From Nitrospirota bacterium (lineage in GTDB: Bacteria > JACPQY01), in contig JACPQY010000030.1 in the NCBI GenBank assembly GCA_016190245.1, forward strand, positions 1 through 36,884: a DNA stretch of 36,884 nucleotides. Direction: 5' to 3'. A program made the translations under genes and the position numbers. Shown piece by piece: positions 177-36,884 of this stretch. Under the pieces are notes generated by a model. That model saw only the letters and a program-made list of their open reading frames with translations, was not told where the DNA came from and did no database searches. Positions within the stretch are counted from its first letter, which is position 1; each line of letters starts with the position of its first letter.

Positions 177-551
177 GTCTGAGCCAGTCCGCAACTGGCG
201 TGTCGCTGCACGTTCCACTAGAATCCTCCTCCACAGACGCATGAGAATGCCACGTAACATGCCCCGCATCCCCTTGCCGAGGAAGGCATGGGGTCATGCA
301 GTGTCGCCGCGTCCGCCGCGGCGGAGATGGCGCGGCATGGACCATGGCCTGCGGGGCTTTATCTCGTGGCACCATGCCATGTTGCATGCGGCCCATCCTG
401 GGCCGCCACATCTCATGGCACCATGCCTTCCATGGCAAGGTGCCCTCAGTGGCAAGGTGCGTCCCTACGGACTGATCGTAGGGCCCGATTCTCACCTGCC
501 CGTCCGTCCGCCGTGGCGGACTGGACAGGCGGGTCGGTCCGTTTGCTGAGC
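177..551. repeat. Hairpin-rich intergenic region
   Basis: No credible gene lies here. The stretch is a stack of short inverted repeats: the core palindrome TCCGCCGCGGCGGA at 312-325 and TCCGCCGTGGCGGA at 507-520; GGCCCA/TGGGCC near 390-405; GGCACC/GGTGCC arms around 417-443; and CCCTACG/CGTAGGG arms at 463-469 and 477-483. The copy at 507-520 sits inside imperfect outer arms (ACCTGCCCGTCC against GGACAGGCGGGT). An open frame runs through from 288 into the next gene but codes for Cys/Trp/His-rich sequence of no recognisable kind, so I treat it as chance. Confidence 0.6.
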
Positions 552-1205
552 ATGTCGTCGAAAAAAATCTATCTGGCGGCTGCGGCCGCAATCGTGGTTG
601 GCTTGGCTGTCTTGGTCTGGGTCCGCGGAGGGCCTGGAAAGCTGTTCAAGCGGCAGGATCCCTCGAAAGACGTCAACAACGGGATCAAGGCGAGCGAATG
701 GAAGCCCGAGGCGCTCAAGCCGATGATCCAGCGGGTCGCGGCCGAGCATGAGGCCCTCAAACCGCCTGAGGGCGAGGCACCTCCGACTCCGCCCGGAGAG
801 CCTCCATTGGAGGAGATCCTGGAAGTGACCATGAACGGGTGGCGGGAGGCGATCCTGAGTCGAGACCCGACCACGCTGGCGGCCGTGGATGCGGAGATTG
901 AGTCAAAGCCCGAGACCTACAAGCCGCTTCTTATGGAGCTGGCGAAGAACGAGCCCGATCCGCGGGTGCGTGCGTTTTCCGTCCGGCTGCTGGGCAGATA
1001 CCGTTTCCCCGAATGCTTCGATCTCCTCGTCGCGCTTCTCGGAGGGGATCCCAGCCGGTACGTCCGCGAGAACGCAGCCTGGGCCTTGGGAGAGCTGGGG
1101 GATTCCCGCGCGGCGGATGTGCTCGATCGAGCGGCGGATGACGATGAGGTGGAGAAGGTTCGGGAAGAGGCCCGCGGGGCACTGGCCAAGCTTGGCGTGA
1201 AGTGA
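552..1205 (+). CDS. Membrane-anchored HEAT-repeat protein
   Basis: This is a 217-residue protein. The ATG at 552 is chosen because the sequence then begins with a classic signal anchor: MSSKK, then a helix of about 20 hydrophobic residues (YLAAAAAIVVGLAVLVWV). A Pro-rich linker around residues 70-85 (PPEGEAPPTPPGEPP) follows. The C-terminal third carries two or three HEAT/PBS-lyase-like helical repeats, seen in D-PRVRAFSVRLLGRY, RYVRENAAWALGELGD and VREEARGALAKLG. HEAT repeats are protein-binding scaffolds, so a periplasmic scaffold role is inferred and the partner is unknown. Its TGA stop overlaps the GTG start of the next gene (GTGA), so the two are probably co-translated. Longer frames upstream run through the hairpin-rich repeats and are unlikely to be translated. 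Confidence 0.75.
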   Translation: MSSKKIYLAAAAAIVVGLAVLVWVRGGPGKLFKRQDPSKDVNNGIKASEWKPEALKPMIQRVAAEHEALKPPEGEAPPTPPGEPPLEEILEVTMNGWREAILSRDPTTLAAVDAEIESKPETYKPLLMELAKNEPDPRVRAFSVRLLGRYRFPECFDLLVALLGGDPSRYVRENAAWALGELGDSRAADVLDRAADDDEVEKVREEARGALAKLGVK

Positions 1206-2230
1206 GGCGGCCGGCCGCGGGGCCAGGCCCGCTGCGAGAGCTCCTGGCGGCCGTGGATGCCCCACCGCCAGGGGATCTCTGCGTGACGGCCCCCGTATGG
1301 GCGCTGGCCTATCGGTATCGGCTCCAGGACCGGTTGGCTTGGCGTGTGGCCGAGGGATCGCTCAATGCCGATCCGAGCCTTTCCGCGGAGATGCACCACG
1401 TCCGCGCGGTGACGGCGGGACGAAACACCGCGCTTGAGCCGCACCAGTCGCGGCTGCTCGAGGGACTCGATCGGGAGGGGATTCCGGTCCTCCAGTTGAA
1501 GGGCTTGTCGCTCAGCCGCCGGCTGTATGGAGACATCGGCCACAGGGACACATCGGATCTTGACCTCCTGGTTCGGCGCGCGGATGTCTATCGCGCTCTG
1601 CAGCACTTGGCCGAACTGGGCTACTTGCCCGTCGAGGACGTGCCGCGCCTCGATCGTTTCCATCAAGTCCCTCTGGGCTACCGCGGCATCGGCGGGTGGC
1701 GGCCCTCGATCGATCTGCACTGGGCCCTCTGTGCCGACGAATTCGGCCCGCACGCCCGTTTCGATTTCTCGATCCCCGAGGAGGAGGTGTGGCGCCACTC
1801 GGATCCGAGTGCCCATGACTTGGACGATCACATGACCCTGACCGGACTGGTGCTCCACGCGTTCACCAACGCGTTCTCGCGTCTGCGCGACTTCGTGGAC
1901 GTGTTGCATCTCGTCCACCGGGCGGCCCCTTCGCTGGATTGGCCGGCGTGGGGGGGGGATATCGCCAGATTCCGGCTCACCAAGGTGGCGGCATTCCTGT
2001 TCAGCCGCCTCGGGGAATGGTGGCGGATGGAGCTGCCGCCGGAGGTGCACGGCCTCGCGGACCGTGAAGCCGGGCTGGGGGGCCGTCTCGCCTATCTTCG
2101 GAACGCCCCCTTTCGCGGCGATATTGGGGGCTGGCGGGAGAAGTTGAGCACGCCTCTGTTTTTCGAGCCGGCGCCGAGGGTCGTCCGCGCGTATCTCCGG
2201 TTCGTTCCGTTGCTCGGGCGCGCATGGTAG
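1202..2230 (+). CDS. Nucleotidyltransferase family protein (PF14907-like)
   Basis: This is a 342-residue protein starting at a GTG that overlaps the previous stop. The motif at about residues 98-124, Q-LKG.SLSRRLYG....R..SDLDLLV, is the signature of the uncharacterised nucleotidyltransferase family PF14907: a Lys-Gly loop, then Asp119 and Asp121 as the metal-binding pair. The middle has the usual family continuation (DLHWAL, a helical region, RLRDFVDVLHLV). Members often sit with capsule, glycosyltransferase or peptide-modification genes, and their substrates are not established. Here the only neighbours are a HEAT-repeat protein upstream and a reductase-like gene 28 bases downstream, so no pathway can be named. 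The family call is firm; the function is open. Confidence 0.78.
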   Translation: MRRPAAGPGPLRELLAAVDAPPPGDLCVTAPVWALAYRYRLQDRLAWRVAEGSLNADPSLSAEMHHVRAVTAGRNTALEPHQSRLLEGLDREGIPVLQLKGLSLSRRLYGDIGHRDTSDLDLLVRRADVYRALQHLAELGYLPVEDVPRLDRFHQVPLGYRGIGGWRPSIDLHWALCADEFGPHARFDFSIPEEEVWRHSDPSAHDLDDHMTLTGLVLHAFTNAFSRLRDFVDVLHLVHRAAPSLDWPAWGGDIARFRLTKVAAFLFSRLGEWWRMELPPEVHGLADREAGLGGRLAYLRNAPFRGDIGGWREKLSTPLFFEPAPRVVRAYLRFVPLLGRAW

Positions 2231-2258
2231 GATCGCCACTCTTACTCGGGAGGTGATG

Positions 2259-3113
2259 ATGTCCAAGTTCGAGCAGACGACGTTGGGAAGCACCGGTCTC
2301 AAGGTGGGACGGCTGGGGATCGGTTCGAGCTATGGCGTGGGCGCGGCCGAGATCGAATGGGCGGTGGAGCGAGGGGTGACCTATCTCTATTGGGGTTCGG
2401 CGCGTCGCCCCGGGATGCGTGATGCCATCCGGTCTCTCGCGCGGAAAGATCGTACGCGCATCCAGGTCGTGGTCCAGAGCTACACTCGTCTTGCGACCCT
2501 CATGGAGTGGAGCTTGGACCGGGCACTGCGGGACGGACGGATCGACCATGCGGATGTGCTTCTTCTCGGCTGGTGGAATGGTGAGCCGCCCCGGCGGATC
2601 GCTGACGAGGGGAGGCGACTCAAGGAAAAGGGCAAGGTTCGCTTCCTGGCCCTTTCGAGCCACCACCGTCCGTTTGCCGCGCGGGTGCTCCGGGAAAAGT
2701 TAGTGGATGTTCTGCACGTTCGCTACAATGCTGCGCACCGCGGCGCGGAGAAAGAAGTGTTCGCTTTTGCCAAGCCAGGGGGGCCGGGGATCGTGACCTA
2801 CACGACGACGCGCTGGGGGTCGCTCCTGCGCCGGCCCAAGGGGCTGGAGGATTCCGTGCCGGTGCCCGGCGCGACCGACTGCTACCAGTTCGCGCTGACG
2901 AATCCGATCGTGGATGTAGTCATCTGCGGCCCTGCGAACCGCGCGCAGCTCGAGTCGGCCGTGGCGGCGCTCAAGAAAGGTCCCATGCCGAAAGACAAGA
3001 TCGAGTGGATGCATCGCGTGGGGGAGGCCGTCCACAAGCAACCTCCGAGCTACACATGGTTCATGAGGACCGTCGCCGCTCTCGATCTCAGGAAAGGCGC
3101 CAGCCCGCCGTAG
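2259..3113 (+). CDS. Aldo/keto reductase-like protein with altered catalytic site
   Basis: This is a 284-residue protein. The ATG at 2259 is preferred over 2256 because GGGAGG at 2248-2253 is then five bases away. The N-terminus (TTLGSTGLKVGRLGIGSSYG) and the C-terminal half (DCYQFALTNPIVDVVICG...QLESAVAAL) follow the aldo/keto reductase TIM barrel. The catalytic tetrad (Asp, Tyr, Lys, His) does not: Tyr44 of VTYLYWGS stands where the Asp is expected, Gln73 replaces Lys, Gly104 of LLLGWW replaces His, and the usual Tyr is not evident. The fold call is good. Ordinary NADPH-dependent carbonyl reduction is doubtful, and a different chemistry or a binding role is possible. Confidence 0.8.
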   Translation: MSKFEQTTLGSTGLKVGRLGIGSSYGVGAAEIEWAVERGVTYLYWGSARRPGMRDAIRSLARKDRTRIQVVVQSYTRLATLMEWSLDRALRDGRIDHADVLLLGWWNGEPPRRIADEGRRLKEKGKVRFLALSSHHRPFAARVLREKLVDVLHVRYNAAHRGAEKEVFAFAKPGGPGIVTYTTTRWGSLLRRPKGLEDSVPVPGATDCYQFALTNPIVDVVICGPANRAQLESAVAALKKGPMPKDKIEWMHRVGEAVHKQPPSYTWFMRTVAALDLRKGASPP

Positions 3114-3205
3114 GGCACTCGATCTGTCCCGGCTGGCCCCTGGCTTGCGCCGCCAGAGAGGGCGTGGGGGGACGGCCCGCAGCAATGCGGGCGCAGGACC
3201 TACGG
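3108..3205. terminator. Dyad at convergent gene ends
   Basis: CCGTAGG at 3108-3114 and CCTACGG at 3199-3205 form 7-base inverted arms that include or abut the TAG stops of the two convergent genes. Between them CCCGCA-GCAA-TGCGGG forms a 6-bp stem with a tetraloop near 3176-3191. No T-run follows, so a Rho-independent terminator is only a guess. This is the one convergent junction in the window without the TCCGCC-NN-GGCGGA palindrome or the 70-bp repeat. Confidence 0.35.
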
Positions 3206-4258
3206 TAGGTGGGCTTGGGCCAAGGGTTTTGAACCAGACCGCAGGCGCCAGGGCGGCAGAAGCTCTTCCTTGGCGAGGTCCTGCAAGAGCAGTTCGGAAA
3301 AACGGTGGCTTCCCTTTTCGTTGAGGTGGCCCCAGTCCGAGAACAGGGCCGGATCGGAATTGATTTCGCCGACGCGTTCGCCGTTGTAGTTCAAGTAGGG
3401 AAGGCGTGTTCGGTGGACTACCTCATCAACCACGGTGGGACTTTCGCCCTGAATGGATCGGCCTCCTAAGTACTCGGGCACCTGGACAAATACCACATCG
3501 AGACCGTCCTCCTGGATCATGGAGAGCAGGGTCTCGAGAGCCCTGACCTGATGTTCGTCGTGGTGCAGGGCAATGGCGCGCGGCGCGAGGCTTGAGCGGT
3601 GCTCGAGCGGAGCGTAGCCATGATAGAACTTCTCCATCGCGACGTCGTGGTAGTCTGTTCGCGCAACAAAGATGGTTTCGAAATAGAACCTTTCCTTGAT
3701 GAGTGGATAGCGATTCATGATCAGTGTTCTTCTGGAGGTATCCGGACTGACGAGGAGCCGGAGGAATAGTTCGACCGGGAAGTACTCACTGTCATCCTCG
3801 AATTGCCTTTTCCAGAGGTTCTCGTCGAACATGAACCAGTCAACGGCGTACAGGATCGTCGAGGGCCGGTGGGGGGATCTGCGGAAAAGGTTCTCGTACC
3901 AGTTCAGATAGTACCGGGGACTGCTTCCGGCGATGGCGAAGTTATAGACCTCCACTCCCGCCCGCTCGAGCACTCCGGGATGTATGCCGTAGCTCGCGTG
4001 AGAAGAGCCAAAGATAACAAGTTCCGCACGAACTTCCGGGGTCAGCAGCTCCGCGAACTGGAGCTCGGTCGACGTGGTGACGTTACCAGCCATTCGGGCA
4101 TTCAGCAGGATGGCGAGGACGAGGAGCGAGGCGGCCACTCCACCTGCCCGCAGGAGGAAGCGGGCGACGCTGGCCCGCTGGCTCGGGTTTGGAATAGCAG
4201 GGTTTCCAAGAGGCTGCTCCGACGTCCGTCGGAGCCAACCCCAGTGTCGAGCCGACAT
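3200..4258 (-). CDS. SGNH/DltD-like membrane-anchored partner of the O-acyltransferase
   Basis: About 352 residues from the ATG at 4258, which leaves a basic N-terminus and one membrane helix (about residues 38-56). The extracytoplasmic domain carries an SGNH-type first block, VIFGSSHASYGI (residues 81-92, serine and histidine as in DltD-like proteins), an AGSSPRYY block, and a final D308-W-G-H311 block that supplies the Asp and His of the triad. Such proteins move or remove acyl groups on cell-surface polymers with an MBOAT channel, as in DltB/DltD and AlgI/AlgX-J. The MBOAT gene lies just upstream on the same strand. The frame is open further upstream, and an ATG at 4360 would overlap the MBOAT gene by 35 bases, so the start is uncertain. 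Local base composition is less GC-rich than the flanks. Confidence 0.75.
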   Translation of the reverse strand: MSARHWGWLRRTSEQPLGNPAIPNPSQRASVARFLLRAGGVAASLLVLAILLNARMAGNVTTSTELQFAELLTPEVRAELVIFGSSHASYGIHPGVLERAGVEVYNFAIAGSSPRYYLNWYENLFRRSPHRPSTILYAVDWFMFDENLWKRQFEDDSEYFPVELFLRLLVSPDTSRRTLIMNRYPLIKERFYFETIFVARTDYHDVAMEKFYHGYAPLEHRSSLAPRAIALHHDEHQVRALETLLSMIQEDGLDVVFVQVPEYLGGRSIQGESPTVVDEVVHRTRLPYLNYNGERVGEINSDPALFSDWGHLNEKGSHRFSELLLQDLAKEELLPPWRLRSGSKPLAQAHLP

Positions 4259-4325
4259 CAGGCGGACAACCAACCATGAACGGACGCGTCCAGCTTCCCG
4301 GGAGGGTCCCCGTGACTTCCGGCCT

Positions 4326-5792
4326 CTAAAACTGAAAATAGATGAATGAGTTGCTGTCATAGTTGCCCCAAAGCAGGATCGCAAGGACGATGGCGTCGTA
4401 GCTCGCCCATCTGAACCACACGGGTTTCTGAGTGAACCAGACATGGACGGAGAAGCGGCTTTGGAGTTTCTGCACGTAGACCATGAGGCCCGTCACAAGG
4501 ACGGCGACAAGCAGGCCCCTTCTCCCAAGTCCAATCTGGGTGACAAGTCGGTCGATACCGGCCAAGCTGGAGACCTCCAACCAGCCTGTGGTGAGATTCC
4601 TCGCGATGTAGAGCGCGTCCGGTACCGTATTCGCCCGGAAGAAGATCCACGCAAAGCACACCAGAACAAACGTCACACCGATCCTGATCCGCCTGTGAAC
4701 ACCGGGATGACGCGAGAGCCCGCAGCGCTCGGCCCACGTCGTGCGGTAGGTCTGTGTAACGCGAGCGCCGACCATGTACAGGCCGTGGAGTCCGCCCCAG
4801 ATCACAAACGTCCAACTCGCTCCATGCCAAAGGCCGCTGGCAAGAAAGACGACAAACACGTTAAGGGACCACCGTGCGAACGAGACCTTCCGCCCTCCCA
4901 GCGGCAAATAGACGTAGTCCCTGAACCAGGCGGAGAGCGACATGTGCCACCGGCGCCAGAAGTCAGAGATCGACTCCGCGGCGTACGGCCTTTCGAAATT
5001 CGGGCTCAGGTGGAAGCCGAGAACACGCGCCGAGCCGATCCCGATATCCACATAGCCCGAGAAGTCACAGTAGATTTGCAGGGCGAAACAGAAGGTGGCG
5101 AGGACGAACTGAGGGCCGTTGCCGTCCGCCGGATTGGCATAGACGTGGTTCACGACCACGCCAAGACGGTCGGCGATGGCCAACTTCTTGAAGAAGCCCC
5201 AGGCCATCAGCGAGAGCCCACTCGTTGCGAGTGTGTAATCGAACCTTTGGCGGTCACGGAACTGTGGGAGCAACCTGCCGGCCCTCTCGATCGGCCCGGC
5301 CACGAGTTGAGGGAAGAAGGACACGTAGAGCGCAAAGATGCCGAGATGCTGTTCGGCTCGTTGGGTGCCGCGATAGACGTCGAATGTGTAGCTTAGGGTC
5401 TGGAATGTGTAGAAGGAGATCCCGACGGGCAGCAGGAAGTTGTGTTCAGGCAGGCTGACCGTAGAATCGGCCAAGCGGAGCACCGAGTTGAGTGAATGGG
5501 AGAAGAAATTGTAGTACTTGAAGAAGGCCAGCATGCCGAGGTTGGAGAAGAGGCTGAAGAAGAGGAACAGTCGGCGAGTGCGGCGGTTCTCTATGCGCGA
5601 GATGCGCAGCGCAGCGTAGTAGTCGATGAGCGTGGAAAGGAGGACCAAGAGGCCGTACGCGGGCTTCCAAGCTGCGTAGAAGTAGTAGCTGGCGCCCAGC
5701 AGAAGGGCCCATCGAAGGCGGTGGGGTGCGGCGAAGAAGAACACCACGACCATGGGAAAGAACACCAGGAAGCCCAGCGAATTGAACTGCAT
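4326..5792 (-). CDS. MBOAT-family O-acyltransferase (AlgI/DltB-like)
   Basis: This is a 488-residue polytopic membrane protein, the usual size for AlgI-type MBOAT enzymes. The signature blocks are LPVGISFYTFQTLSY (121-135), SFFPQLVAGPIER (158-170), ISDFWRRWHMSLSAWFRDYVY (275-295, His283) and ASGLWHGASWTFVIWGGLHG (318-337), in which His323 is the expected catalytic histidine. AlgI-type proteins carry acetyl groups across the inner membrane to acetylate exopolysaccharide or other surface glycans. The SGNH protein encoded next on the same strand would finish the transfer. No polysaccharide synthase is in the window, so the acceptor is unknown. The start gives the canonical N-terminus MQFNSLGFLVFF, although no clear Shine-Dalgarno is visible. 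Confidence 0.92.
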   Translation of the reverse strand: MQFNSLGFLVFFPMVVVFFFAAPHRLRWALLLGASYYFYAAWKPAYGLLVLLSTLIDYYAALRISRIENRRTRRLFLFFSLFSNLGMLAFFKYYNFFSHSLNSVLRLADSTVSLPEHNFLLPVGISFYTFQTLSYTFDVYRGTQRAEQHLGIFALYVSFFPQLVAGPIERAGRLLPQFRDRQRFDYTLATSGLSLMAWGFFKKLAIADRLGVVVNHVYANPADGNGPQFVLATFCFALQIYCDFSGYVDIGIGSARVLGFHLSPNFERPYAAESISDFWRRWHMSLSAWFRDYVYLPLGGRKVSFARWSLNVFVVFLASGLWHGASWTFVIWGGLHGLYMVGARVTQTYRTTWAERCGLSRHPGVHRRIRIGVTFVLVCFAWIFFRANTVPDALYIARNLTTGWLEVSSLAGIDRLVTQIGLGRRGLLVAVLVTGLMVYVQKLQSRFSVHVWFTQKPVWFRWASYDAIVLAILLWGNYDSNSFIYFQF

Positions 5793-6367
5793 GGCGAACT
5801 GGGCTCGGTCAGGGATTCGTGTCTGGTGTCGAGTAGGTGCCTTCTATCAGCCAGGAAGAGCCGTGCTTGGTGCGCGTGTAGCTCTGCCGGCGGCAGCCTG
5901 AAGAAGTCCAAACGACGCCGAGCCGGGACCGGCCAGGCCGGGACAGGCAACGGTTCACGAAGCCGAGATTGGGTCGCCGAGGCGCCCGGCTGGATGTTGC
6001 TTCACTCATCGGGATCCCCCCGTCAAAGCGGAACCCGTAGCCCAGCTTGCATCACGCAACGGGGATGCCAGAGTGTGATCTAGATCGCAATTCAATCAAT
6101 ACGGATGTGGTTTTGAGAAGATACGACACATCGCCCGTTGCCGATCGCAGGAGTCAGCAGGGGCGGCGCAAGGAAGAGTTTCAACACGGGTGCCGATTCT
6201 TCTGACACCGACTCCAGCGACTGTTGCCCCTCCCGCGCTCCTGTCATCAAGGGAATTCCCCCCGCCTCCGGGGGCTGGGCGGCTGCTCAAAATGGCGGAC
6301 GTGCGGTTGGTGCGGATTCGGCAGGGTGTTCCATTCCCGGCGAGGGAGCGGGAGGGCCCCTTGGGGC
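5793..6367. other. Long intergenic region upstream of the O-acyltransferase
   Basis: No convincing gene. This stretch of 575 bases lies between the MBOAT start and the 3' end of the isochorismatase-like gene, so it should hold the MBOAT promoter. It includes an AT-rich patch (about 6085-6120) next to a CRP-like dyad. A 66-codon minus-strand frame (6009-5809) starts after a G-rich run (GGGGGGAT) that could act as a ribosome site, but its product is Ser/Arg-rich, resembles nothing I know, and is left uncalled. None of the dispersed palindromes occur here. Confidence 0.5.
6074..6089. promoter_or_regulatory. CRP/FNR-like dyad
   Basis: TGTGATCTAGATCGCA matches the CRP-type consensus TGTGA-N6-TCACA with one change, and contains the perfect palindrome GATCTAGATC. 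It lies about 280 bases upstream of the O-acyltransferase start, beside an AT-rich segment. That distance is long for direct activation unless the mRNA has a long leader. Binding by a CRP/FNR-family protein is inferred from the consensus alone. Confidence 0.35.
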
Positions 6368-6940
6368 TCAGGCCAAGTCTCGGACGAGGGAGGAGATCTT
6401 CTTGAAGGCTTCCGTGCCCGCTTGGCGGGTCCAGCCGAAGATGAGCGTTTCAGTCGTGGTCAGGCAGGCGCCCTCTTCGGCCATGAGGGCGAGGGCGGTC
6501 TCGTAGTCGAGGAGCTTCCGGGAGCAGACGGCGTCGCGCAGGACGTACGGCTTGTAGCCGCCGCGCAACAGGCCGGCCACTGTCTGGTAGACGCAGACGT
6601 GCGTTTCCATGCCGGCCACGACGATGTGGGGGCGGTCGAGATCTTGAAGCTTCTGCATGAACCCGGGGACGTCGGAGCAACTGAATGCCAGCTTCGTCAC
6701 GGGTGGGGTTTCAGCGAGCAACGCGCGAATCTCAGGGAGGGTGGGGCCGAGTCCCTTGGGGTACTGCTCGGAATGGACGATCGGCACACCGTACACGGCA
6801 GCGGCCTTGAGGAGGGCCTGGGTATGCTTGAGGACCCGCGGCTTGAGCGACTCGTTCATGGCCGGCCAGAGCTTCTCCTGGAAATCTATGAGGGCCACTA
6901 CCGTGTCCTCGGGGGTCGGGATCGAGATCGGGCGCATCAT
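6368..6940 (-). CDS. Isochorismatase-family cysteine hydrolase
   Basis: This is a 190-residue protein, typical for the family. The catalytic triad is readable: Asp19 in VVALIDFQEKL, Lys83 in PPVTKLAFSC and Cys116 in AGMETHVCVYQT, the last preceded by the family cis-peptide region. The sequence resembles the YcaC-like and nicotinamidase-related branch rather than true isochorismatases, which carry an extra carrier-protein interface. The substrate is probably a small amide or ester and cannot be read from sequence. The second Met (6937) is an equally good start. The gene stands alone on this strand, with the promoter presumably in 6941-7140. Confidence 0.87.
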   Translation of the reverse strand: MMRPISIPTPEDTVVALIDFQEKLWPAMNESLKPRVLKHTQALLKAAAVYGVPIVHSEQYPKGLGPTLPEIRALLAETPPVTKLAFSCSDVPGFMQKLQDLDRPHIVVAGMETHVCVYQTVAGLLRGGYKPYVLRDAVCSRKLLDYETALALMAEEGACLTTTETLIFGWTRQAGTEAFKKISSLVRDLA

Positions 6941-7150
6941 GGGATCAAGGGGAACGCGTGGGGCCCTGGGCTAGCGGAGGCGTGAGCCGCATCCCGTGAG
7001 CGTATCACGAAGAGCCGACGATGCAACGCGCGGAGGGAGTGGTTGCCAGGGGAGGGTGCGGGGCTGTGGCGCTGCCGTGCTATGCCATCGGACCGGTTCT
7101 TTGTGGTTCGCCGGGTCGGGGTGTAGGCTAGGGGCCGAAAGGAGGCGAGG

Positions 7151-7839: not shown

Positions 7840-7842
7840 GGA

Positions 7843-8811: not shown

Positions 8812-8886
8812 CACGCGGGATGGGCGCGGCTGGAGTGGTTGGCGGAAAGGGCGAGACAGAGGTGGCCAGGCCTTCGGGATGAGGTT

Positions 8887-9720: not shown

Positions 9721-9750
9721 ATTGTCCAGCGTGAAGACGCGGGCTGCCTG

Positions 9751-9764
9751 TCCGCCACGGCGGA
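9751..9764. repeat. TCCGCC-NN-GGCGGA palindrome at convergent ends
   Basis: This is a perfect 14-base palindrome, TCCGCCACGGCGGA, extended to 16 by flanking G and C. It lies 30 bases past the stop of the DUF62 gene and about 100 bases from the end of the convergent Tam41-like gene. A copy of the 70-base dispersed repeat follows directly. Confidence 0.75.
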
Positions 9765-9834
9765 CTACCGGGAACTGGAATCCGGGGTAGGCGCACCCGT
9801 GGAATGGGGCACAGCAGGCGTTGAGCCTGCGAGC
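9765..9834 (+). repeat. 70-bp dispersed intergenic repeat, copy A
   Basis: This copy runs from CTACCGGGAA through GTAGGCGCACCCGTGGAA and GGGGCACAGCAGGC to GAGCCTGC-GAGCC. It aligns without gaps to 12766-12835, with a handful of substitutions, and to the reverse complement of 32161-32231. The 3' half folds as a hairpin (GCAGGC with GCCTGC). It lies between convergent genes, immediately after a TCCGCC-NN-GGCGGA palindrome. Confidence 0.8.
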
Positions 9835-9867
9835 CTCGCACGACGGGCGATCATTCCGCCACACCTC

Positions 9868-12690: not shown

Positions 12691-12885
12691 GGGGACAGCC
12701 ACGCGGGCTGCCTGCCCGCCGAAGTCCGTCCGCCGTGGCGGACTGGACAGGCGGGAAGCCCGCGGCTACCGGGACCGCGAATCCGAGGTAGGCGCACCCG
12801 TGGAACGGGGCACAGCAGGCTTTGAGCCTGCGGGCCACTCGCAGGGGACGGTCATGCCGTCAGGCGTTTTCTGAATCGGGCCGGT
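12691..12885. repeat. Repeat cluster between convergent genes
   Basis: This gap holds nested inverted repeats: outer arms CGCGGGCT near 12703 and AGCCCGCG near 12758, and inside them the core palindrome TCCGCCGTGGCGGA at 12729-12742. The core is followed by GGACAGGCGGG, which is also present beside the copy at 507-520. Copy B of the 70-bp repeat comes next (12766-12835). No gene is visible. A terminator role for both flanking genes is inferred from position. Confidence 0.7.
12766..12835 (+). repeat. 70-bp dispersed intergenic repeat, copy B
   Basis: Same unit as 9765-9834, in the same orientation on the window. It includes GGTAGGCGCACCCGTGGAA and a GCAGGCT-TTG-AGCCTGC hairpin at its end. It sits in the convergent junction between the DUF218 and DUF4340 genes. 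Confidence 0.8.
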
Positions 12886-18836: not shown

Positions 18837-18998
18837 GCCAGGAGCGTGTTGGGATAGCTGCACGCTCATGGTTCGATCCGCCGCGGCGGACTCACCATGA
18901 GCGGAATGTTCAATCGTGGCAAAACAGGCCGCTCGCCCTGTCCGCCATGGGCGGATTGTCGAAGGGCGAAACACGACCTATCCCAACACGCTCCTGGC
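18837..18998. mobile_element. MITE-like element with perfect 21-bp terminal inverted repeats
   Basis: The left arm 18837-18857 (starting GCCAGGAGCGTGTTGGG) and the right arm 18978-18998 are perfect reverse complements over 21 bases. Inside are two further hairpins. Arms CGCTCATGGT (18863-18872) and ACCATGAGCG (18894-18903) enclose the palindrome TCCGCCGCGGCGGA (18877-18890). Arms TCGCCCT (18933-18939) and AGGGCGA (18963-18969) enclose TCCGCC-ATG-GGCGGA. There is no ORF of note. It begins two bases after a stop codon between convergent genes. It may be a non-autonomous mobile element, a large bidirectional terminator, or a palindrome of the REP/BIME kind. Confidence 0.6.
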
Positions 18999-25049: not shown

Positions 25050-25057
25050 AGTTGGGC

Positions 25058-27489: not shown

Positions 27490-27637
27490 GGAAGCATTCG
27501 GCGGTCAGCCGTTCCGCCGATCGGCGGACACGGCAGCCGTCAGCCTCGGAACCGGAGACGAGCCGCGCGGCTTGTGCCCGTTTCGCGCGTCCAGCATAAT
27601 CCCGACTTGAAAATGCGACGACAAGGATAGGTGCGGG
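27490..27637. repeat. Palindrome between pyrG and cheR
   Basis: A perfect 16-base palindrome TCCGCCGATCGGCGGA lies at 27513-27528, 23 bases after the pyrG stop, flanked by GCCGT and ACGGC arms. It is a variant of the core found elsewhere, with four central bases instead of two. No gene is present. The cheR promoter should lie in the right half but I see no convincing hexamers. Confidence 0.6.
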
Positions 27638-29210: not shown

Positions 29211-30853
29211 AGCGGCAGGCTGCCGGTGAGGGCTTGGCGGATGAACTGGCGGGATGGGTCGCGTCCGTGCGCTACGAAGACCTGCCCTCGAGCGCGATCG
29301 AGCGGTTGAAAGTGCAGGCGTGTGGAATGGTGGGCGCTGCGTTTGCAGGTCTTCACTCGCAAGGGGCGCAGGCGCTCCTGCGAGCCCTACGGCGACCGTA
29401 CGAGCGGTCCGGCCGCGAGAACGGCAGCGCGGGGTTTGCGACCGTGGTCGCGACCGGCGAACGCTTCCGAACCGCCGATGCGCTGTTTGCCAACACGGGT
29501 CTCTCGATGGCGTTCGACTACGACGACTATCTCTTCATGGGCCACACGGGGCACTCCGCCGTTTTCAGTCCCCTGGCCGTGTGCGAGGCGCTCGGAAAGA
29601 GCGGCAAGGATTTCCTCTTGGCGGCGGCGATCGCCAACGAGATCGAGGGTCGCATCGGGGCCGCGGTCCTCCTAGGCCCCTACAACGGCCAGCTCTGGTC
29701 TTTCATTCATGCGGTGGGGACGGCGTGCGCGGCGGGCCGGCTCCTCGGTCTGAATCGCGAGCAGATCAGGAATGCGATCGGGCTGAGCCTCTATCTTCCG
29801 CCGTACCCGATGGTCCCCGGCTTCATGGGGCCGTCCTCGAAACTCCTCACCGCAGCCGTCCCGTCCACGATCGGGCTGCGCGCCGCCGAGCTGGCGGCCG
29901 AGGGCATGACGGGCGCGCCGGACATCCTGGAGAGCCGCCACGGATTCCTCAACGCGTTTTCGTATCTCCCCATGCCCGCGGTCATTTCCGGCCTGGGGAA
30001 GAGTTGGGTGACGGATTCGATCTGTTTCAAGGCCTACCCCGGCTGCGCGTACGTGAGCTCCATTGCCGAGGCGTTGCGCGCGGCGCTGGCCGAGCTCGGG
30101 CTCAAGGGCAGGGGACTGGAGCGGACGGGCGACCTGGAATCCCTTGAGATCCGCGCGACGTTGCTGACGCTCGGGATGGACGCGCTCTCCGCGCCGTATC
30201 GGAAGTCGCCGCCGACCTCGGTGAACGTGAACTTCTCTGCGGCGCTCAGTGCGGCAGTCGTTCTGTTGCATGGCGACCTGCGGCCGAGGTTGCTCGAAGC
30301 GGATCGCCTGACGAACGACGGCCAAGCCCTCGAAGACCTCACGTCGCGCATCCGCGTGAGGCACGATTGGGACATGACCGTGGCGCTTCAGAAGGGGATT
30401 GCCCAGGGGATCAACTTGGTGCCGTTTCTCTCGGGCGTTTCCTTTCGTCGCCTGCTGGCGCTGCGAGGGCGCGTGCGCGACCAGATCGGCGGGGCGTTTT
30501 CCCTTCGCGGCCTCCGGCCGGCCCACGCGCGGGAGTTGGTGCGCACGGCCCGCTCCGGCGTGCGAAGCCGTGGCCTGGACCGCGCGCGGTTCGACCGGCT
30601 CGAGATGCGCTTCACAAGCGAGGTGAGGCTGGCCCTCAAGGGGGGGCGTTCGGCCTCGGCGCGCGTTGATCTCCCACCCGGTTCGGCCGGCCGCCCGTGG
30701 GAGGAAACCGTGGCGCAGGTATCCGCCAAGGTCCGTGACGAGGCCCCCGAGCGGCTGGGGAAGGCCCGCGTCGAGGAGTTGCTGCGCTCGCTGATGCATC
30801 TGGATCGTGTGGGCAACGTGCGCGACCTGACGCTGGGCCTCGCTTCGACGTGA
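29207..30853 (+). CDS. MmgE/PrpD-family protein
   Basis: This is a 548-residue protein, rather long for the family (about 450-500). It carries the MmgE/PrpD pattern: ERLKVQACGMVGAAFAGL at the start, NTGLSMAFDYDDYLFMGHTGHSAVFSPLAVCEA (aspartates and histidines of the active region, about 97-130), ANEIEGRIG, GPSSKLLTAAVPSTIGLRAAELA, then KAYPGCAYVSSIAEAL. Relatives include 2-methylcitrate dehydratase, cis-aconitate decarboxylase and others, so the substrate is uncertain. No prpB, prpC or acnD lies nearby to support a methylcitrate pathway. It is translationally coupled to plsC (ATGA) and to the M48 gene (GTGA). Confidence 0.85.
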   Translation: MKRQAAGEGLADELAGWVASVRYEDLPSSAIERLKVQACGMVGAAFAGLHSQGAQALLRALRRPYERSGRENGSAGFATVVATGERFRTADALFANTGLSMAFDYDDYLFMGHTGHSAVFSPLAVCEALGKSGKDFLLAAAIANEIEGRIGAAVLLGPYNGQLWSFIHAVGTACAAGRLLGLNREQIRNAIGLSLYLPPYPMVPGFMGPSSKLLTAAVPSTIGLRAAELAAEGMTGAPDILESRHGFLNAFSYLPMPAVISGLGKSWVTDSICFKAYPGCAYVSSIAEALRAALAELGLKGRGLERTGDLESLEIRATLLTLGMDALSAPYRKSPPTSVNVNFSAALSAAVVLLHGDLRPRLLEADRLTNDGQALEDLTSRIRVRHDWDMTVALQKGIAQGINLVPFLSGVSFRRLLALRGRVRDQIGGAFSLRGLRPAHARELVRTARSGVRSRGLDRARFDRLEMRFTSEVRLALKGGRSASARVDLPPGSAGRPWEETVAQVSAKVRDEAPERLGKARVEELLRSLMHLDRVGNVRDLTLGLAST

Positions 30854-32076
30854 GAATCGCGCTGGTCCTCGGGGCTGCGGTGGCGTACATCGTCTTCGCG
30901 GTTCTCTCCTATCGCGAGCTGAGCCGTGAAACGGCTCGACTCGAAGCGCGCGTTCAAGAGCGGTTCGATCCGGCCTTCGTCCAGAAGGCGCGGGACTATC
31001 GCCGACAGGCCCTCCGCGTGTCCTGGGCGAGGGATGCGGCCGAGGCGCTGGTTCTGCTGCTCCTCGTGTTCGGTCCGATCCATCGGGCCCTGTTCTCCAC
31101 CGTCGCGCGGCTTGCCGGGGGTCGTCCTTGGGTCGAGGGCGCCTTGGGTGGGCTCGCCTTGCTCGTCGTCCTCGCGCTGATCGGATTGCCCTTCGCGTTC
31201 TACCGCGGCTACGTCATGGAACATGCCTATGGCTTCTCCCGTCAGTCACTGGGCGCTTGGTTCGAGGATTTTGGTAAGGCGTGGGGCGTTCAGCTCGCGA
31301 TCGGTCTCCCTCTGGTCGTCTTCGCCTTGGAGATGATGCGCCGGTATCCGATGGATTGGTGGTGGCGGACGGGCCTGATCGCCTCGGGTGTGATGCTTCT
31401 CCTCGTTTACCTCGCGCCCGTAGTCATCGAGCCCCTCTTCTTCGATTTCAAGCGTCTCGACGATCGAGCCTGGGAGGAGAAAATGCTCGGCCTTGCAGGC
31501 CGGGCCGGGCTTTCCGTCGAGGGGGTCTGGGTGGCCGACGCGAGCCGTCGCTCGACAAAGAAGAACGCCTACTTCACAGGTTTGGGGTCCACGAAGCGCA
31601 TCGTCCTGTTCGATACCCTTGTGGATGGTAGCCGGCGCGGGGACGTGGAGGGGGTTCTAGCCCACGAGTTGGGGCACTGGAAGCACCGCCACACGCTGAA
31701 GGGTGTGGTGCTCGGGATCGTGGCCGTTTTCATCACGGCCTATCTGGCCCAACTCGCTCTTCCCGTGGCGCTGCGCGTGGCCGGGGGGGGGGCTTTGACG
31801 CCGGGATCGGCGGGCCTGTTGCCGCTGCTGGGGCTCCTTGTGGGGCTGGCCGGCTTCTTCGCGACGCCGGTGGAGAACGCGCTATCGCGGCGGATGGAGG
31901 CCCAGGCCGACGCGTTCGCTGTCCGCTTGGCGGGGGACCCGGCAACGATGGTCCGGATGGAAGAGGATCTCGTCCGCTCGAACCTTTCCGATCCGTTGCC
32001 GCCTGCGTGGATCGAGTGGATGTACTCGTCCCACCCGGCTCCGCTCAAGCGGATTCAGGCGGCGCTCGGCGGGTAG
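30850..32076 (+). CDS. M48-family integral membrane metalloprotease (Ste24-like)
   Basis: This is a 408-residue protein starting at a GTG that overlaps the previous stop. The N-terminal region (GYVMEHAYGFSRQSLGAWFEDFGKAW) matches the CAAX-protease M48 N-terminal domain, with several membrane helices. The zinc site is LAHELGHWKHRH (His272, Glu273, His276), with the third ligand in NALSRRMEAQADAFAV. SSHPAPLKRI near the end is also family-typical. In bacteria such proteases clip or clear membrane and envelope proteins, since prenylated CAAX substrates are not expected. It is the last gene of the coupled cheR-plsC-PrpD-M48 series and ends facing the ABC gene. Confidence 0.93.
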   Translation: MRIALVLGAAVAYIVFAVLSYRELSRETARLEARVQERFDPAFVQKARDYRRQALRVSWARDAAEALVLLLLVFGPIHRALFSTVARLAGGRPWVEGALGGLALLVVLALIGLPFAFYRGYVMEHAYGFSRQSLGAWFEDFGKAWGVQLAIGLPLVVFALEMMRRYPMDWWWRTGLIASGVMLLLVYLAPVVIEPLFFDFKRLDDRAWEEKMLGLAGRAGLSVEGVWVADASRRSTKKNAYFTGLGSTKRIVLFDTLVDGSRRGDVEGVLAHELGHWKHRHTLKGVVLGIVAVFITAYLAQLALPVALRVAGGGALTPGSAGLLPLLGLLVGLAGFFATPVENALSRRMEAQADAFAVRLAGDPATMVRMEEDLVRSNLSDPLPPAWIEWMYSSHPAPLKRIQAALGG

Positions 32077-32338
32077 GGGTGGGTTTTTGCAAGGGCTGGG
32101 AGCCACGGATGCCGCACGCGGCGTGCCCGGGCACGAAGAGAACAAGCGTCCGGCATGAGGGGCCCGCAGGCTGAAAGCCTGCTGTGCCCCGTTCCACGGG
32201 TGCGCCTGCCTCGAATCCCTGTTCCCGGTAGCCGCGGGCCATGTTCCATGCCGCACCATCCGTGGTGCGGCGACATATCATGGTCCCATGCCCTCCGTGG
32301 CATGGGGCTTTTGCCCGCGAAGCTGCGCGGGAGCCCCC
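32077..32338. repeat. Repeat cluster between convergent genes
   Basis: The M48 gene and the minus-strand ABC gene converge here. The gap holds copy C of the 70-bp repeat (32161-32231, inverted), then CCGCACCA-TC-CG-TGGTGCGG near 32250-32270, and CCATGCC/GGCATGG arms near 32285-32305. The last two resemble motifs in the 331-440 hairpin stack. There is no gene in this stretch and no TCCGCC-NN-GGCGGA core. Confidence 0.65.
32161..32231 (-). repeat. 70-bp dispersed intergenic repeat, copy C
   Basis: The reverse complement aligns with 9765-9834 and 12766-12835 (CTACCGGGAA...GGCGCACCCGTGGAACGGGG...AGCCTGCGGGCC). The terminal GCAGGCT-GAA-AGCCTGC hairpin is kept although the loop differs. Confidence 0.8.
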
Positions 32339-33025
32339 TCAAGCGCTGCTGTCGTCCACGACCCGCCCGTCCCGGAGTCGCACCGTGCGCCGCGCCCTTG
32401 AGGCCACGCCGGCGTCGTGCGTCACGATCATGACGGTCGCGCCGTGCCGGCAGTTGGCCTGAACGATTGCCTCCATGACCGTGCGGGCAGAATCGCTGTC
32501 CAGATTCCCCGTCGGTTCGTCGGCGAGGATCAGTTCGGGCGAATTGGCGAGCGCCCGCGCGATGGCGACGCGCTGCTTCTCACCGCCCGAGAGCTGGTTG
32601 GGCAGGTGGCCCATCCGCGGCGCCAGGCCGAAGGCCTCAAGGAGTTCGAGCGCCCGCTCGCGCCGCCGTCTCTGACTGCGCTCCACGGTCAGCATCGGCA
32701 CCTGCACGTTCTCCAGGGCCGTCAGCGTGGGGATGAGGAAGAAGGCTTGGAAGACGAATCCGATCGCCCGGGCACGAAATGCGGCCAGATCCCCGTTGCG
32801 GGCGAGGGGAGCCCCCTTGAAATGGATCGTGCCGCCATCCGGGAACTCGAGCGCCCCGATCAGACTGAGGAGCGTGGACTTGCCGCTTCCGCTCGGGCCC
32901 GTCACCGCCAGAAACTCTCCTTGCCGTATGGTCAGACTCACCGCACGCAGGGCATGTACGCGGCCCTCCTCGTAGACCTTGTCCACGGACCGCAGTTCAA
33001 CCAACGCCCCCGAGGACTCCACCAT
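32339..33025 (-). CDS. ABC transporter ATP-binding protein (LolD/MacB-like)
   Basis: This is a 228-residue protein from the ATG at 33025; AAGGGA lies four bases upstream, but a well-placed promoter suggests that the mRNA may begin at the ATG itself. Walker A is [10 protein letters not shown] (42-51), Q-loop [17 protein letters not shown], signature [15 protein letters not shown] (145-159), Walker [13 protein letters not shown] (165-176) and the switch His in VTHD. The A-loop and the [11 protein letters not shown] segment are those of the LolD/MacB/FtsE-like group, which power mechanotransmission by FtsX-type permeases. No such permease is encoded next to it; its partner must lie elsewhere or to be shared. 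Confidence 0.92.
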
Positions 33026-33032
33026 ACGGTCC

Positions 33033-33061
33033 CTTATACGGGCTGGAGCGGCCGGGAGCAA
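33033..33061 (-). promoter_or_regulatory. Promoter for the ABC gene, likely leaderless
   Basis: On the minus strand TTGCTC (33061-33056), 17 bases, then TATAAG (33038-33033). The -10 keeps five of six consensus bases. The ATG follows after seven bases, where transcription would be expected to start. Confidence 0.5.
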
Positions 33062-33098
33062 CCCATCCCATCCGCTGCCCCATTTCATCTCTCAACAG

Positions 33099-33127
33099 TT
33101 GACTCCCAACGTGAAAGGCTACACAAT
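33099..33127 (+). promoter_or_regulatory. Promoter for the EAL gene, likely leaderless
   Basis: TTGACT at 33099-33104, 17 bases, CACAAT at 33122-33127, then seven bases to the ATG at 33135. Five of six and four of six consensus bases match. No Shine-Dalgarno lies before the ATG. Confidence 0.55.
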
Positions 33128-33134
33128 GCTTTAG

Positions 33135-34388
33135 ATGGCCTCGGAAGCGAACCTCTTCGTCTATGACGAGGTCACGCAACTGCCCAGCCTCCACGCCGCT
33201 CTACCTCGGGTGCGACTCCTCCTCGACAACTTCCGACGCCTCGGTCTGATCTACGTGGACCTGACCCACTACGGCCACTTCGAGGAGGCGGAGGGGGGAG
33301 ACAAGTTCGACGAGATTGTCCGCCGGGTGGCCAAGCGCTTCCAGAAGTTTGCCTCCGAAATCAGCCGGGAGTCGATTCTCGCCGTGGACTGGCCAAGCGG
33401 TGGGGATCTCGTTGCCTTTGTCGCGATGGACGACCCCGAACTCGACCGTGCCGCGATGCACGAGATCTGCCAGATGCTCGACATCGAGTTGACGAGCGAG
33501 ATGCACGAGCTCCTGAGAGGAGACGGCACGGGCCGCTACGCGGCCTACGTGGGGTACGACGTTGTGCATCAGAACTCGCTTGTCCGCTTCGAACGACTCA
33601 TACGGCGGGGGATCAACGAGGCTCTCAACATGGCGATGAACGAGGACGCACGCGAGCGGAACTACCGCATCGGCCGCCTCCGCGAGATCGTGAGACGCCG
33701 GGATCTGCGCCCGCTGTTTCAGCCGATCCAGCACCTCCAGAAGGGTCTCGTGGTTGGCTACGAGGTTCTGATACGTGGCCCTGAGAATACGAAGTTCAAT
33801 GACCCCTCCGTGCTTTTCTCCACCGCCCAGTCCTGCAACATGACGTTCCAACTCGAGGAGGCGGGACAGAGCCAGATGCTCGACGTCCTGCGCGCCAACG
33901 GTTCGCACCAGTACTTCCTGAATGTGGAGCCCGACATCATCGAGAAGGATGAACTGTACCGCCTTCCCGTGGTGCAGGACCGGGGGATTGACTCGCGCAG
34001 CCTTGTGATCGAGGTGACGGAGCGCGCGGCGATCACGAACCTCGAGGCGTTCGCAAGGTCCATCCAGCGCGTCAAGGAGACGGGGCTGAGGGTGGCCGTG
34101 GACGACGTCGGCTCCGGCTACGCCTCCATCGAGTCCGTGGCCTTCCTGAAGCCGGATTACATCAAGATCGATCGGCTCCTCATCCACGAGATCCACGAGG
34201 ATCCGACGCGTCGGGAAGTGACGCGGACGATCCTGGACTTGGCGTCGAGGATCGATGCCATGTGCATTGCCGAGGGGATCGAAAAGGCGGCCGAGATGGA
34301 GTGCCTGATCGATCTGGGGGTGGAGTTAGGTCAAGGGTTCTACCTCGGCCGGCCGAATCCGGCCCCGCCCGCGGCCCCGCAAAGGTAG
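33135..34388 (+). CDS. EAL-domain c-di-GMP phosphodiesterase with degenerate GGDEF-like N-terminus
   Basis: This is a 417-residue protein. The EAL domain (about 185-410) has the residues needed for catalysis: Glu210 in GYEVLIRG (EVL for EAL), Asn263 in FLNVEPD, Glu293 in VIEVTER, Asp323-Asp324 in VAVDDVGSGYAS, Lys344 in YIKIDR, Glu380 in IAEGIE and Gln400 in GQGFYLGRP. It should hydrolyse c-di-GMP. The N-terminal 160 residues keep the start of a GGDEF fold (DEVTQLPSLHAALPRV, LGLIYVDLTHYG) but have SGGDLVAF instead of the GGDEF signature, so cyclase activity is unlikely. No membrane segment is seen, so it is cytosolic. It probably starts on a leaderless mRNA. Confidence 0.9.
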   Translation: MASEANLFVYDEVTQLPSLHAALPRVRLLLDNFRRLGLIYVDLTHYGHFEEAEGGDKFDEIVRRVAKRFQKFASEISRESILAVDWPSGGDLVAFVAMDDPELDRAAMHEICQMLDIELTSEMHELLRGDGTGRYAAYVGYDVVHQNSLVRFERLIRRGINEALNMAMNEDARERNYRIGRLREIVRRRDLRPLFQPIQHLQKGLVVGYEVLIRGPENTKFNDPSVLFSTAQSCNMTFQLEEAGQSQMLDVLRANGSHQYFLNVEPDIIEKDELYRLPVVQDRGIDSRSLVIEVTERAAITNLEAFARSIQRVKETGLRVAVDDVGSGYASIESVAFLKPDYIKIDRLLIHEIHEDPTRREVTRTILDLASRIDAMCIAEGIEKAAEMECLIDLGVELGQGFYLGRPNPAPPAAPQR

Positions 34389-34436
34389 GGAAAGCCGCCC
34401 GGCGGCCGACGCGCGGGCGGAGGAGTTCGCGGCGAC

Positions 34437-35852
34437 ATGACCTCCCGGCGAGACGCTTTGCCGTTGTTCTCATCGCCGGGGGCGCGGGGAACCGGCCCGT
34501 TGGCGGATCGTTTGCGACCCGAGACGCTGGATGAGCTGGTGGGGCAGCCCGACCTCGCGGGGATCGATGCCGTCCTTCGGCGTTGGATCGATGAGGATGC
34601 GGTGCCTTCCCTCGTCCTGTGGGGCCCTCCGGGGTGCGGCAAGACGAGCGCGGCGCGGGTTGTCCAGCGGCACACTCGACGCCCCGTGGTTGCTTTCTCG
34701 GCGGTGGCCTCGGGGGTCAAGGACGTGCGTGCCGTTCTCGAACGGGCCGAGGCCGCATGGAAGGGAGGCGGTCCGCCCACCCTGGTCTTCATCGACGAGC
34801 TCCACCATTTCACCAAGGTCCAACAGGACATCTTCCTCCCGCATGTGGAGGAGGGGAGTGTCGTTCTGCTGGCGACCACGACGGAGAATCCGTCCTTCCA
34901 CGTCATCGGACCCTTGCTGTCCCGGTGCCAGGTCCTTATCCTCCGGCGCCTGTCCGAGGAGGACCTCTCGACGCTCCTGCGGCGCGGACTGACTCACCCG
35001 AGGGGGGGGCTGACCGAACGAAAGGTGGAGGCGGTGGACGAGGTACTCGGGGCCATTGCATCCGCGGCGGACGGTGATGCCCGGCGGGCGCTCAATGTCC
35101 TGGATCTTGCGGCGCGGGCGACCAAGCCCGGTGACGTGATCACCGCCGAGACGGTCCGGCGGGTCCTCGGTCGCCGGGTGTACCTCTACGACCGCGACAG
35201 GGAGGAGCACTACAACGTCATCTCGGCGTTCATCAAGAGTGTGAGAGGGAGCAATCCCGATGCGGCCATCTACTGGCTTGCCCGAATGCTGGAATCGGGG
35301 GAGGATCCGCTCTTCATCGCCCGCCGCATGATCATCCTGGCCTCCGAGGACATTGGGAACGCCGACCCGCGGGCGTTGCCGATGGCGGTGGCCGCGATGC
35401 ACGCGGTGGACTTCATCGGCCTGCCCGAGGGTACGCTTCCGCTCGCACAAGCGGCGGCGTATCTCGCCTCGGCGCCGAAGTCCAATGCAGCCTACCGGGC
35501 CTATCTGGACGCCCGGGCAGACGTGGCGCGCCACGGCTCGCTGCCCGTCCCGCAGCACCTTCGAAACGCGGTCACCTCGCTCATGGAAGGCGCCGGTTAC
35601 GGGCGGGGCTACCTGTATCCGCACGACGATCCGGGTGGGATTGTCGCCCAGACCTACCTCCCGGAGGCCCTCAGTGGGCGGTCCTACTATCGGCCCAAGA
35701 GCCACGGCGCAGAGAGGGAGATCGCGGATCGGCTGAGAGAGTGGGAGCGCATGCGGGCGGAAAGGGGGGCGGAACGGCCGGCGGCCGAAAGCGATGGAAT
35801 TGCCCGAAGCGGAAGTGCTCTGCCGCCAGTTGAGGGAAAGCCTCGGCGGTAG
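34437..35852 (+). CDS. rarA: Replication-associated recombination protein A (MgsA/RarA AAA+ ATPase)
   Basis: This is a 471-residue protein, slightly longer than E. coli RarA (447). It shows LADRLRPETLDELVGQ, Walker A LWGPPGCGKT (61-70), Walker B LVFIDELHHF (116-125), TTTENPSF, LLSRCQV and the C-terminal tetramerisation domain (EHYNVISAFIKSVRGSNPDAAIYWLARMLESGEDP, then RMIILASEDIGNADP). The Walker B helix reads DELHHFTK where DEIHRFNK is usual. RarA acts at stalled forks and single-strand DNA ends. The last 59 bases overlap the mutM gene in another frame, so two DNA-maintenance genes share one mRNA. Confidence 0.95.
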   Translation: MTSRRDALPLFSSPGARGTGPLADRLRPETLDELVGQPDLAGIDAVLRRWIDEDAVPSLVLWGPPGCGKTSAARVVQRHTRRPVVAFSAVASGVKDVRAVLERAEAAWKGGGPPTLVFIDELHHFTKVQQDIFLPHVEEGSVVLLATTTENPSFHVIGPLLSRCQVLILRRLSEEDLSTLLRRGLTHPRGGLTERKVEAVDEVLGAIASAADGDARRALNVLDLAARATKPGDVITAETVRRVLGRRVYLYDRDREEHYNVISAFIKSVRGSNPDAAIYWLARMLESGEDPLFIARRMIILASEDIGNADPRALPMAVAAMHAVDFIGLPEGTLPLAQAAAYLASAPKSNAAYRAYLDARADVARHGSLPVPQHLRNAVTSLMEGAGYGRGYLYPHDDPGGIVAQTYLPEALSGRSYYRPKSHGAEREIADRLREWERMRAERGAERPAAESDGIARSGSALPPVEGKPRR

Positions 35853-36651
35853 GCGGATCGCGTCCGTCCAGATCCTCACTCCGGCTTTCGTCGAGGGAAC
35901 CGCCCGGGCATTGGCGGGTGGCCGCATCTCCTCCGTCACTCGGTACGGCAAGGCCATCGCGCTGGACCTCGCCCGGGGGCGGGCTGCTGAGGTTGTGGTC
36001 CTCCTGCAGCTCGGCATGACCGGCCAGCTCCTGTTGCGCGAGGACGGCTCGGCTTTGCAGCCGCATACGCACATCGTACTTGGGTTCGAGGGGCACAACC
36101 GGGTCCTCCATGTCCGCGATGCAAGGCGGTTCGGTCGTATGGTGGTGATGTCGCCTCACGCGTTCTCGATGTGGCGGTTGGACAACACCGCGGCCGATCC
36201 GTTGGGGATGAGCGCAAGTGAGTTTTGCCGGCGCGTTCGAGTGCGCCGCGCCCCCATCAAGCGGGTTCTCCTCAACCAGCGTGTTGTCGCCGGCATCGGC
36301 AACATCTACTCGGACGAGGCGCTGTTCGAGGCCGGCCTGCACCCCATGAGCCCCGCCTGCTCCTTTCCCGACGAGGATCTAGGCCGACTGCACGCGGCCT
36401 TGGCGCGAGTGCTGAGCCGGGCGATCGCTGCCGGGGGATCGACCATCTCGGATTTCGTGGACCTATACGGCCGCAAGGGTGGCTTCCAGCGGCAACACCG
36501 AATCTACGGTCGCTACGGCCGGCCGTGCCCGGAATGCGGCACGGTCCTGAGGCGGATTCGCGAGACCAGCCGCAGCTTCACCTATTGCCCCCGCTGCCAG
36601 CCTGCAGGTGTTTGCCGCTCTGCGAGGCATGGGCGCCATAGGATCGTGTAG
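35794..36651 (+). CDS. mutM: Formamidopyrimidine-DNA glycosylase family protein (MutM/Fpg)
   Basis: This is a 285-residue protein. It has the Fpg/Nei fold: ELPEAEVL at the start, Lys53 in YGKAIALDL, LLQLGMTGQLLL, ARRFGRMVV, NQRVVAGIGNIYSDEALFEAGLHP (helix-two-turn-helix), and the C-terminal zinc finger Cys245-x2-Cys248-x16-Cys265-x2-Cys268 with RETSRSFTYC. In Fpg the residue after Met is Pro1, the nucleophile; here Met is followed directly by Glu, so the proline is absent and Met would probably not be removed. A base-excision role on oxidised purines is therefore uncertain. The start lies inside rarA. Confidence 0.9.
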   Translation: MELPEAEVLCRQLRESLGGRRIASVQILTPAFVEGTARALAGGRISSVTRYGKAIALDLARGRAAEVVVLLQLGMTGQLLLREDGSALQPHTHIVLGFEGHNRVLHVRDARRFGRMVVMSPHAFSMWRLDNTAADPLGMSASEFCRRVRVRRAPIKRVLLNQRVVAGIGNIYSDEALFEAGLHPMSPACSFPDEDLGRLHAALARVLSRAIAAGGSTISDFVDLYGRKGGFQRQHRIYGRYGRPCPECGTVLRRIRETSRSFTYCPRCQPAGVCRSARHGRHRIV

Positions 36652-36884
36652 GTCTGGGTCCTGTTTGAAAACCTTTAGCCGGCCACCGCAATCTTTGTAG
36701 GGGAGGGTGCTTGCACCCTCCCTCCCCCCGGGCGGGTCCATCCGCCACGGCGGACGGAAGGACCCGCCCCTACCACGGTCATTGCCCTGCCATCTCCGCC
36801 GCGGCGGACAGGGCCACACCTGGGCAGGAAGCCCTGGTGCCACGAGCGGAAGGCAGCCCACGAAGGGCTGCGATGAACGTGGCA
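36652..36884. repeat. Stack of four hairpins downstream of mutM
   Basis: No gene is visible. In order: GGGAGGGTGC/GCACCCTCCC (36701-36710, 36713-36722); GGGCGGGTCC/GGACCCGCCC (36730-36739, 36760-36769) enclosing TCCGCCACGGCGGA (36741-36754); GCCCTG/CAGGGC (36784-36789, 36809-36814) enclosing TCCGCCGCGGCGGA (36795-36808); and GCAGCCC/GGGCTGC (36853-36859, 36865-36871). The window ends within this array. Confidence 0.75.

Follow-up and report, generated by a model that had tools for sequence, protein, structure and literature searches.

A short palindromic core at the tips of unrelated REP-like hairpins in a Nitrospirota genome

Copies of a short palindrome, TCCGCC-NN-GGCGGA, recur between the genes of a contig from a Nitrospirota bacterium (JACPQY010000030.1; the whole stretch of 36,884 nucleotides is hereafter the window), and several are nested, as an earlier note on this DNA had described, within outer inverted repeats whose sequences are unrelated. 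The seven exact cores (TCCGCCNNGGCGGA) listed in that note lie where it placed them, and the eighth copy is a variant with a 4-nt spacer (Table 1). The note held that the palindrome is confined to gene 3' ends and offered a bidirectional terminator, an mRNA 3' stabiliser or a selfish element of the REP/BIME kind as explanations. Which of these is it, and how would so small a sequence come to lie inside other repeats?

The window is a single contig out of the 86 that make up a 3.29-Mb genome with a completeness of 85%. Across this genome the core occurs 128 times, against 2 occurrences of the reversed pattern used as a control, which puts the family far above chance. Patterns with rearranged arms were rarer as well: in a 716-kb sample TCCGCC-N(0-8)-GGCGGA was found 106 times, and eight such controls 2-20 times. 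The spacer is not random, being GT or AC in 76 genome copies and an R-Y pair (GT, AC or GC) in 118 of the 128. The core, TCCGCC-RY-GGCGGA, is thus a 14-bp palindrome, to which four extra bases are often added to make an 18-bp unit. Genes were called with a simple caller written for the analysis (87.6% coding), and sites were classed in the 716-kb sample and in a second, later-fetched set, giving 915 kb combined. In these 915 kb, 80 of 90 R-Y core sites fall outside called genes, and a recurrent host repeat could be assigned to all but 18 of the 90. The core is a short, high-copy and mainly intergenic palindrome, as REPs are. No known RNA family in Rfam matched within the window, and a search of the available literature found no published description of the exact core sequence.

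Does the core mark the ends of genes? With our own gene calls, the junctions of the window are as the earlier note had them, three of five convergent and none of five divergent junctions carrying a core, yet this pattern is not upheld in the wider sample. Among junctions of at least 80 bp in the 915 kb, an R-Y core is present in 15 of 49 convergent (31%), 38 of 198 co-directional (19%) and 11 of 69 divergent (16%) junctions; the stretches sampled were picked for containing cores, which raises the overall density but is not expected to favour any junction type. A convergent excess is present but weak (Fisher p=0.07 against divergent and p=0.12 against co-directional junctions). The 11 divergent junctions, in seven of which both neighbouring genes encode at least 150 aa, contradict the confinement to gene 3' ends and lend no support to the idea that only 3' sites are tolerated. 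Even in the window, the two leftmost copies (312 and 507) lie at the contig edge upstream of the first gene, where the left neighbour is absent from the contig, and their placement at a 3' end is not confirmed.

If the core worked at gene ends as an RNA or DNA element, terminating transcription in both directions or stabilising mRNA 3' ends, the very stable predicted hairpins and the weak enrichment in convergent junctions would fit. An intrinsic terminator requires a GC stem followed by a T-run, however, and T-runs within 45 nt of the core are found in only 4 of 180 flanks (2.2%), compared with 5.2% of random intergenic 45-mers. Because T-runs are so rare beside it, the core is not an intrinsic terminator, and none of the terminator-like sites that terminator scans returned in the window falls on one of the listed cores. 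The divergent junctions and the in-frame copies within genes described below also tell against a gene-end element, which we consider improbable. The mostly intergenic placement is instead probably due to selection against hits in coding sequence and promoters.

Two core-bearing repeats lie in frame within open frames, each between conserved domains. Taking distant solved homologues, not orthologues, as the reference, an ABC exporter (L021:15553-17412) has 67 residues between its aligned halves compared with 33 in 5mkk (about 34 extra, in the linker), and a MoxR ATPase (L031:3690-4958) has 51 residues where RavA has 12 (about 39 extra). Elsewhere, two 3-hydroxyacyl-CoA dehydrogenase segments share one open frame (L039:15041-16480) that runs through a complete hairpin of the type termed host A below; the repeat may have bridged two genes or have been inserted.

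The core forms the apex of several unrelated hairpins, including GTAG-tagged REP-like repeats, a CGTC-type REP, the TTCGACAAGCTCA repeat and others, and most of the hairpin types that bear it are also found core-less in the same genome. These hosts were defined by explicit patterns, automatic flank clustering having put 52 of 70 sites in one group. In the 716-kb sample, host A (GTAGYCGCGGGCTT/CAGCCCGCG) is filled at 13 loci by a C module holding the core and has a bare short loop at five; one further locus has a variant core and another, in the window, a D-type repeat. Part of the core copy number is due to amplification of entire host A and C units. The 18 loci of host B (GTAG-ended, GGCGGGTCCA/AGGACCCGCC) comprise nine of 38 bp and nine bare 20-bp hairpins. 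An 18-bp insert occupies the identical point in all nine filled loci, with nothing lost; six inserts are exact cores and three are degraded, and both orientations relative to the host are present, two of the nine being opposite. The right end of the window (36697-36884) and the end of L028 share the same repeat, with a core in host B in one and none in the other, and these contig-end repeats probably break the assembly.

In host E (CGTC-type REP, GCGATCCGCCAG/CCGGCGGAGAAGC) five loci have the core between two copies of CCAG, two otherwise identical loci have a single CCAG and no core, and 11 have other loops. Host D has the core at eight loci genome-wide (one degraded) and CTGRG in its place at seven. 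Two copies of the host F repeat (L075 and L078) have very similar sequences on either side of the loop and are distinguished by a core within it, while host H bears the core in the window and in a genome of the same family (G001, locus L087) and has a CAAG loop without it at L078:8458. Hosts D, F, H and K show no clean insertion, the core replacing 4-5 loop bases, and so one simple mechanism does not fit all hosts. By inspection, a four-base CMAG (CCAG, CAAG and complements) recurs in the loops of hosts B, D, E, F, H and K and is a candidate target.

Compared with flanks drawn at random from intergenic DNA, outer stems around cores are stronger (7 of 27 contexts exceed the 95th percentile, against 1.4 expected; Mann-Whitney p=1.6e-6), a comparison that used one representative per context and is supportive, not independent, since hosts were chosen after inspection. 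Roughly half of the contexts, and no more, have a strong outer stem. Of 53 distinct contexts, 7 have a direct repeat of 4 bp or longer immediately beside the core, some of the seven being related and thus not all independent; shuffling the flanks gave an expectation of 0.7 such contexts and a maximum of 5. In the window, hosts A, B, D, F and H are all represented (Table 1), together with an associated repeat that gave 19 blastn matches in 915 kb, 15 of them within 150 bp of a core.

Table 1. Core-bearing hairpins and associated repeats in the window, with predicted folding energies.
Positions	Strand	Feature	Core	Predicted fold (kcal/mol)
302..336	-	Host D hairpin, GCCGCGCCATC-core-CGCGGCGACA; core TCCGCCGCGGCGGA	312-325	
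495..533	+	C-type nested palindrome, CCTGCCCGTCCG-core-CTGGACAGGCGGG	507-520	
9736..9769	-	Truncated GTAG-tagged host A; minus strand reads GTAG, core, CAGG, CAGCCCGCG	9751-9764	
9760..9835	+	Associated 70-80 bp repeat adjoining host A		
12702..12769	-	Complete host A hairpin, GTAG CCGCGGGCTT (CCCGCCTGTCCAG-core-CGGACTTCGGCGGGCAGG) CAGCCCGCG	12729-12742	-45.5
12762..12842	+	Associated 70-80 bp repeat adjoining host A		
18838..18997	.	Triple nest: perfect outer 20-bp inverted repeat CCAGGAGCGTGTTGGGATAG (18838-18857, complement 18978-18997) around two inner hairpins	Exact in one inner hairpin, variant in the other	-96.7
18864..18902	+	Host H hairpin, GCTCATGGTTCGA-core-CTCACCATGAGC; core-less form has CAAG in loop	18877-18890	
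18941..18955	+	Variant core in second hairpin, TCGCCCT...AGGGCGA	Variant, TCCGCCATGGGCGGA	
27513..27528	+	Variant core between co-directional genes	Variant, TCCGCCGATCGGCGGA	
32157..32235	-	Associated 70-80 bp repeat without core		
32228..32319	+	Host A hairpin; loop is a D-type repeat plus a second hairpin, replacing the C/core module		
36697..36773	+	GTAGGGG...CCCCTAC composite with host B hairpin (36731-36768); less common insert orientation	36741-36754	
36784..36814	+	Host F hairpin, GCCCTGCCATC-core-CAGGGC; core-less form GCCCTGCCATCCTGGCAGGGC	36795-36808	

Beyond this genome the core is scarce. The R-Y core reached at most nine copies in any of 289 other genomes (the maximum being in G073), and a spread of the element across bacteria was rejected on these counts. 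The same-family genome, from a different genus, has six R-Y copies in 4.7 Mb; there the host B pattern, with its arm relaxed by one base, matched only core-less hairpins and the host E pattern had no match. Twenty contexts were inspected in five other genomes, and in the four GC-rich ones these are mostly coding-like by eye, unlike the present hosts. Several exact cores lie in AT-rich surroundings in G227 (about 39% GC) and G073, whose flanks look AT-rich (L096-L103, L201-L203). An exact 27-base pattern of the host A/C nest, compared with database genome contigs (from which the window's own record was perhaps excluded), returned no named relatives. The CTP synthase of this genome reaches at most 66% identity with named records, of which those from groundwater deltaproteobacterial MAGs are the closest.

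Could a RAYT-type transposase move the core? The earlier note had suggested looking for one, and the genome does encode such enzymes, eight Y1_Tnp genes in all (L056-L063); the cores that might have tied them to the palindrome were absent from their fetched loci, which extend about 1.5 kb on each side. A cognate RAYT flanked by core copies was thus not found at these loci, and a direct RAYT link was rejected. At least six of the eight genes appear by eye to be bordered by terminal inverted repeats of their own (GGGGTCA.../...TGACCCC or GGGGACGTT...), not by REP hairpins.

The suggestion of a REP/BIME-like selfish palindrome has fared best, as most cores sit in GTAG- or CGTC-tagged REP-like hairpins, core-less twins exist and some copies are intragenic. 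On balance, we favour the reading that the core is a very small, repeated and probably selfish module that has spread mainly by entering the loops of REP-like hairpins. The core would enter the loop of a hairpin made by another REP-like repeat and then be copied together with that host, giving nested, "Russian-doll" palindromes in which a REP-like stem lies outermost, a C module sometimes comes next, and the core forms the tip. Because the loci with and without the core are paralogues within one genome, not orthologous loci of sister strains, it is by inference that the core-less form is taken as ancestral and the event as an insertion, or gain, and not a loss. A single-stranded hairpin intermediate may have been involved, processed on the lagging strand by an HUH-type enzyme such as a RAYT, or arising as polymerase switched templates between hairpins. 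Weighing against this reading, the 4-bp duplications are confined to some contexts, which are not all independent, and no transposase is linked to the core. A stronger version, in which the 18-bp palindromic unit moves on its own, aimed at the loops of extruded hairpins, and ranks among the smallest mobile DNA elements known, is possible but doubtful.

Alternatively, the core may not move itself at all, the tips of extruded hairpins having been swapped from one REP-like repeat to another through template switching or gene conversion, with amplification of whole REPs afterwards. Such an exchange would account for the loops that are replaced, not interrupted, in hosts D, F, K and H and for the one identical nested tip in most host A and C copies, and published REP families do have long self-complementary loops, some common to several families (PMC3733652). 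It is harder to reconcile with the exact 18-bp insertion of host B, without loss and in both orientations, with the duplicated CCAG of host E and with cores that lie outside any recurrent host, and we judge it rather unlikely. One exact 14-mer, dispersed genome-wide in high copy, could also be a recognition sequence for a DNA-binding protein, such as an uptake or chromosome-organisation signal selected at many sites; its occurrence follows the repeat hosts and not an even spacing, and the few copies in the same-family genome also make this highly improbable. If the core truly inserts into hairpin tips, as we favour, mobile DNA elements would have a lower size limit near 18 bp, hairpin loops themselves would be a target, and the way in which REP families gain long self-complementary loops would be accounted for. 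The exact core-bearing and core-less pairs offer material for testing transposase against template-switch models.

Short GC-rich mobile hairpins whose units merge are known as mitochondrial double-hairpin elements, RHE and yeast GC clusters, the last with putative target-site duplications (PMC2800124, PMC4478555); these are organellar, and their likeness to the core is one of analogy. Rickettsia palindromic elements (RPE) lie in frame within protein genes (PMC3733652), but are longer, and the in-frame unit here is the larger repeat carrying the core. The GTAG/CGTC REPs (Di Nocera et al., 2013) are small, many-copy intergenic palindromes for which self-complementary loops, REPs within other palindromes and in-frame intragenic copies have been described (PMC3733652). 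Hosts A and B resemble them in their GTAG end and host E in its CGTC/TGTC-type end, whereas an unpaired GTAG or CGTC tag is missing from the core itself and belongs to these hosts. Published REPs are mostly found between co-directional and convergent genes (PMC3733652), unlike the core, which is also found in divergent junctions. The present case departs from the known kinds in that one untagged 14-18 bp palindrome is the tip of several unrelated hosts.

Cyanobacterial small dispersed repeats (SDR) reportedly nest in other repeats. They are about 20 bp long and thought to be mobile (Elhai et al., 2008, as cited in PMC3116915), and they are the nearest in size, although the core, at 14-18 bp, is shorter, is almost perfectly palindromic and comes from an unrelated lineage. 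An SDR-like trait is nevertheless found here, in that core-bearing and core-less versions of one flank occur, as paralogous copies, for hosts A, B, D, E, F and H.
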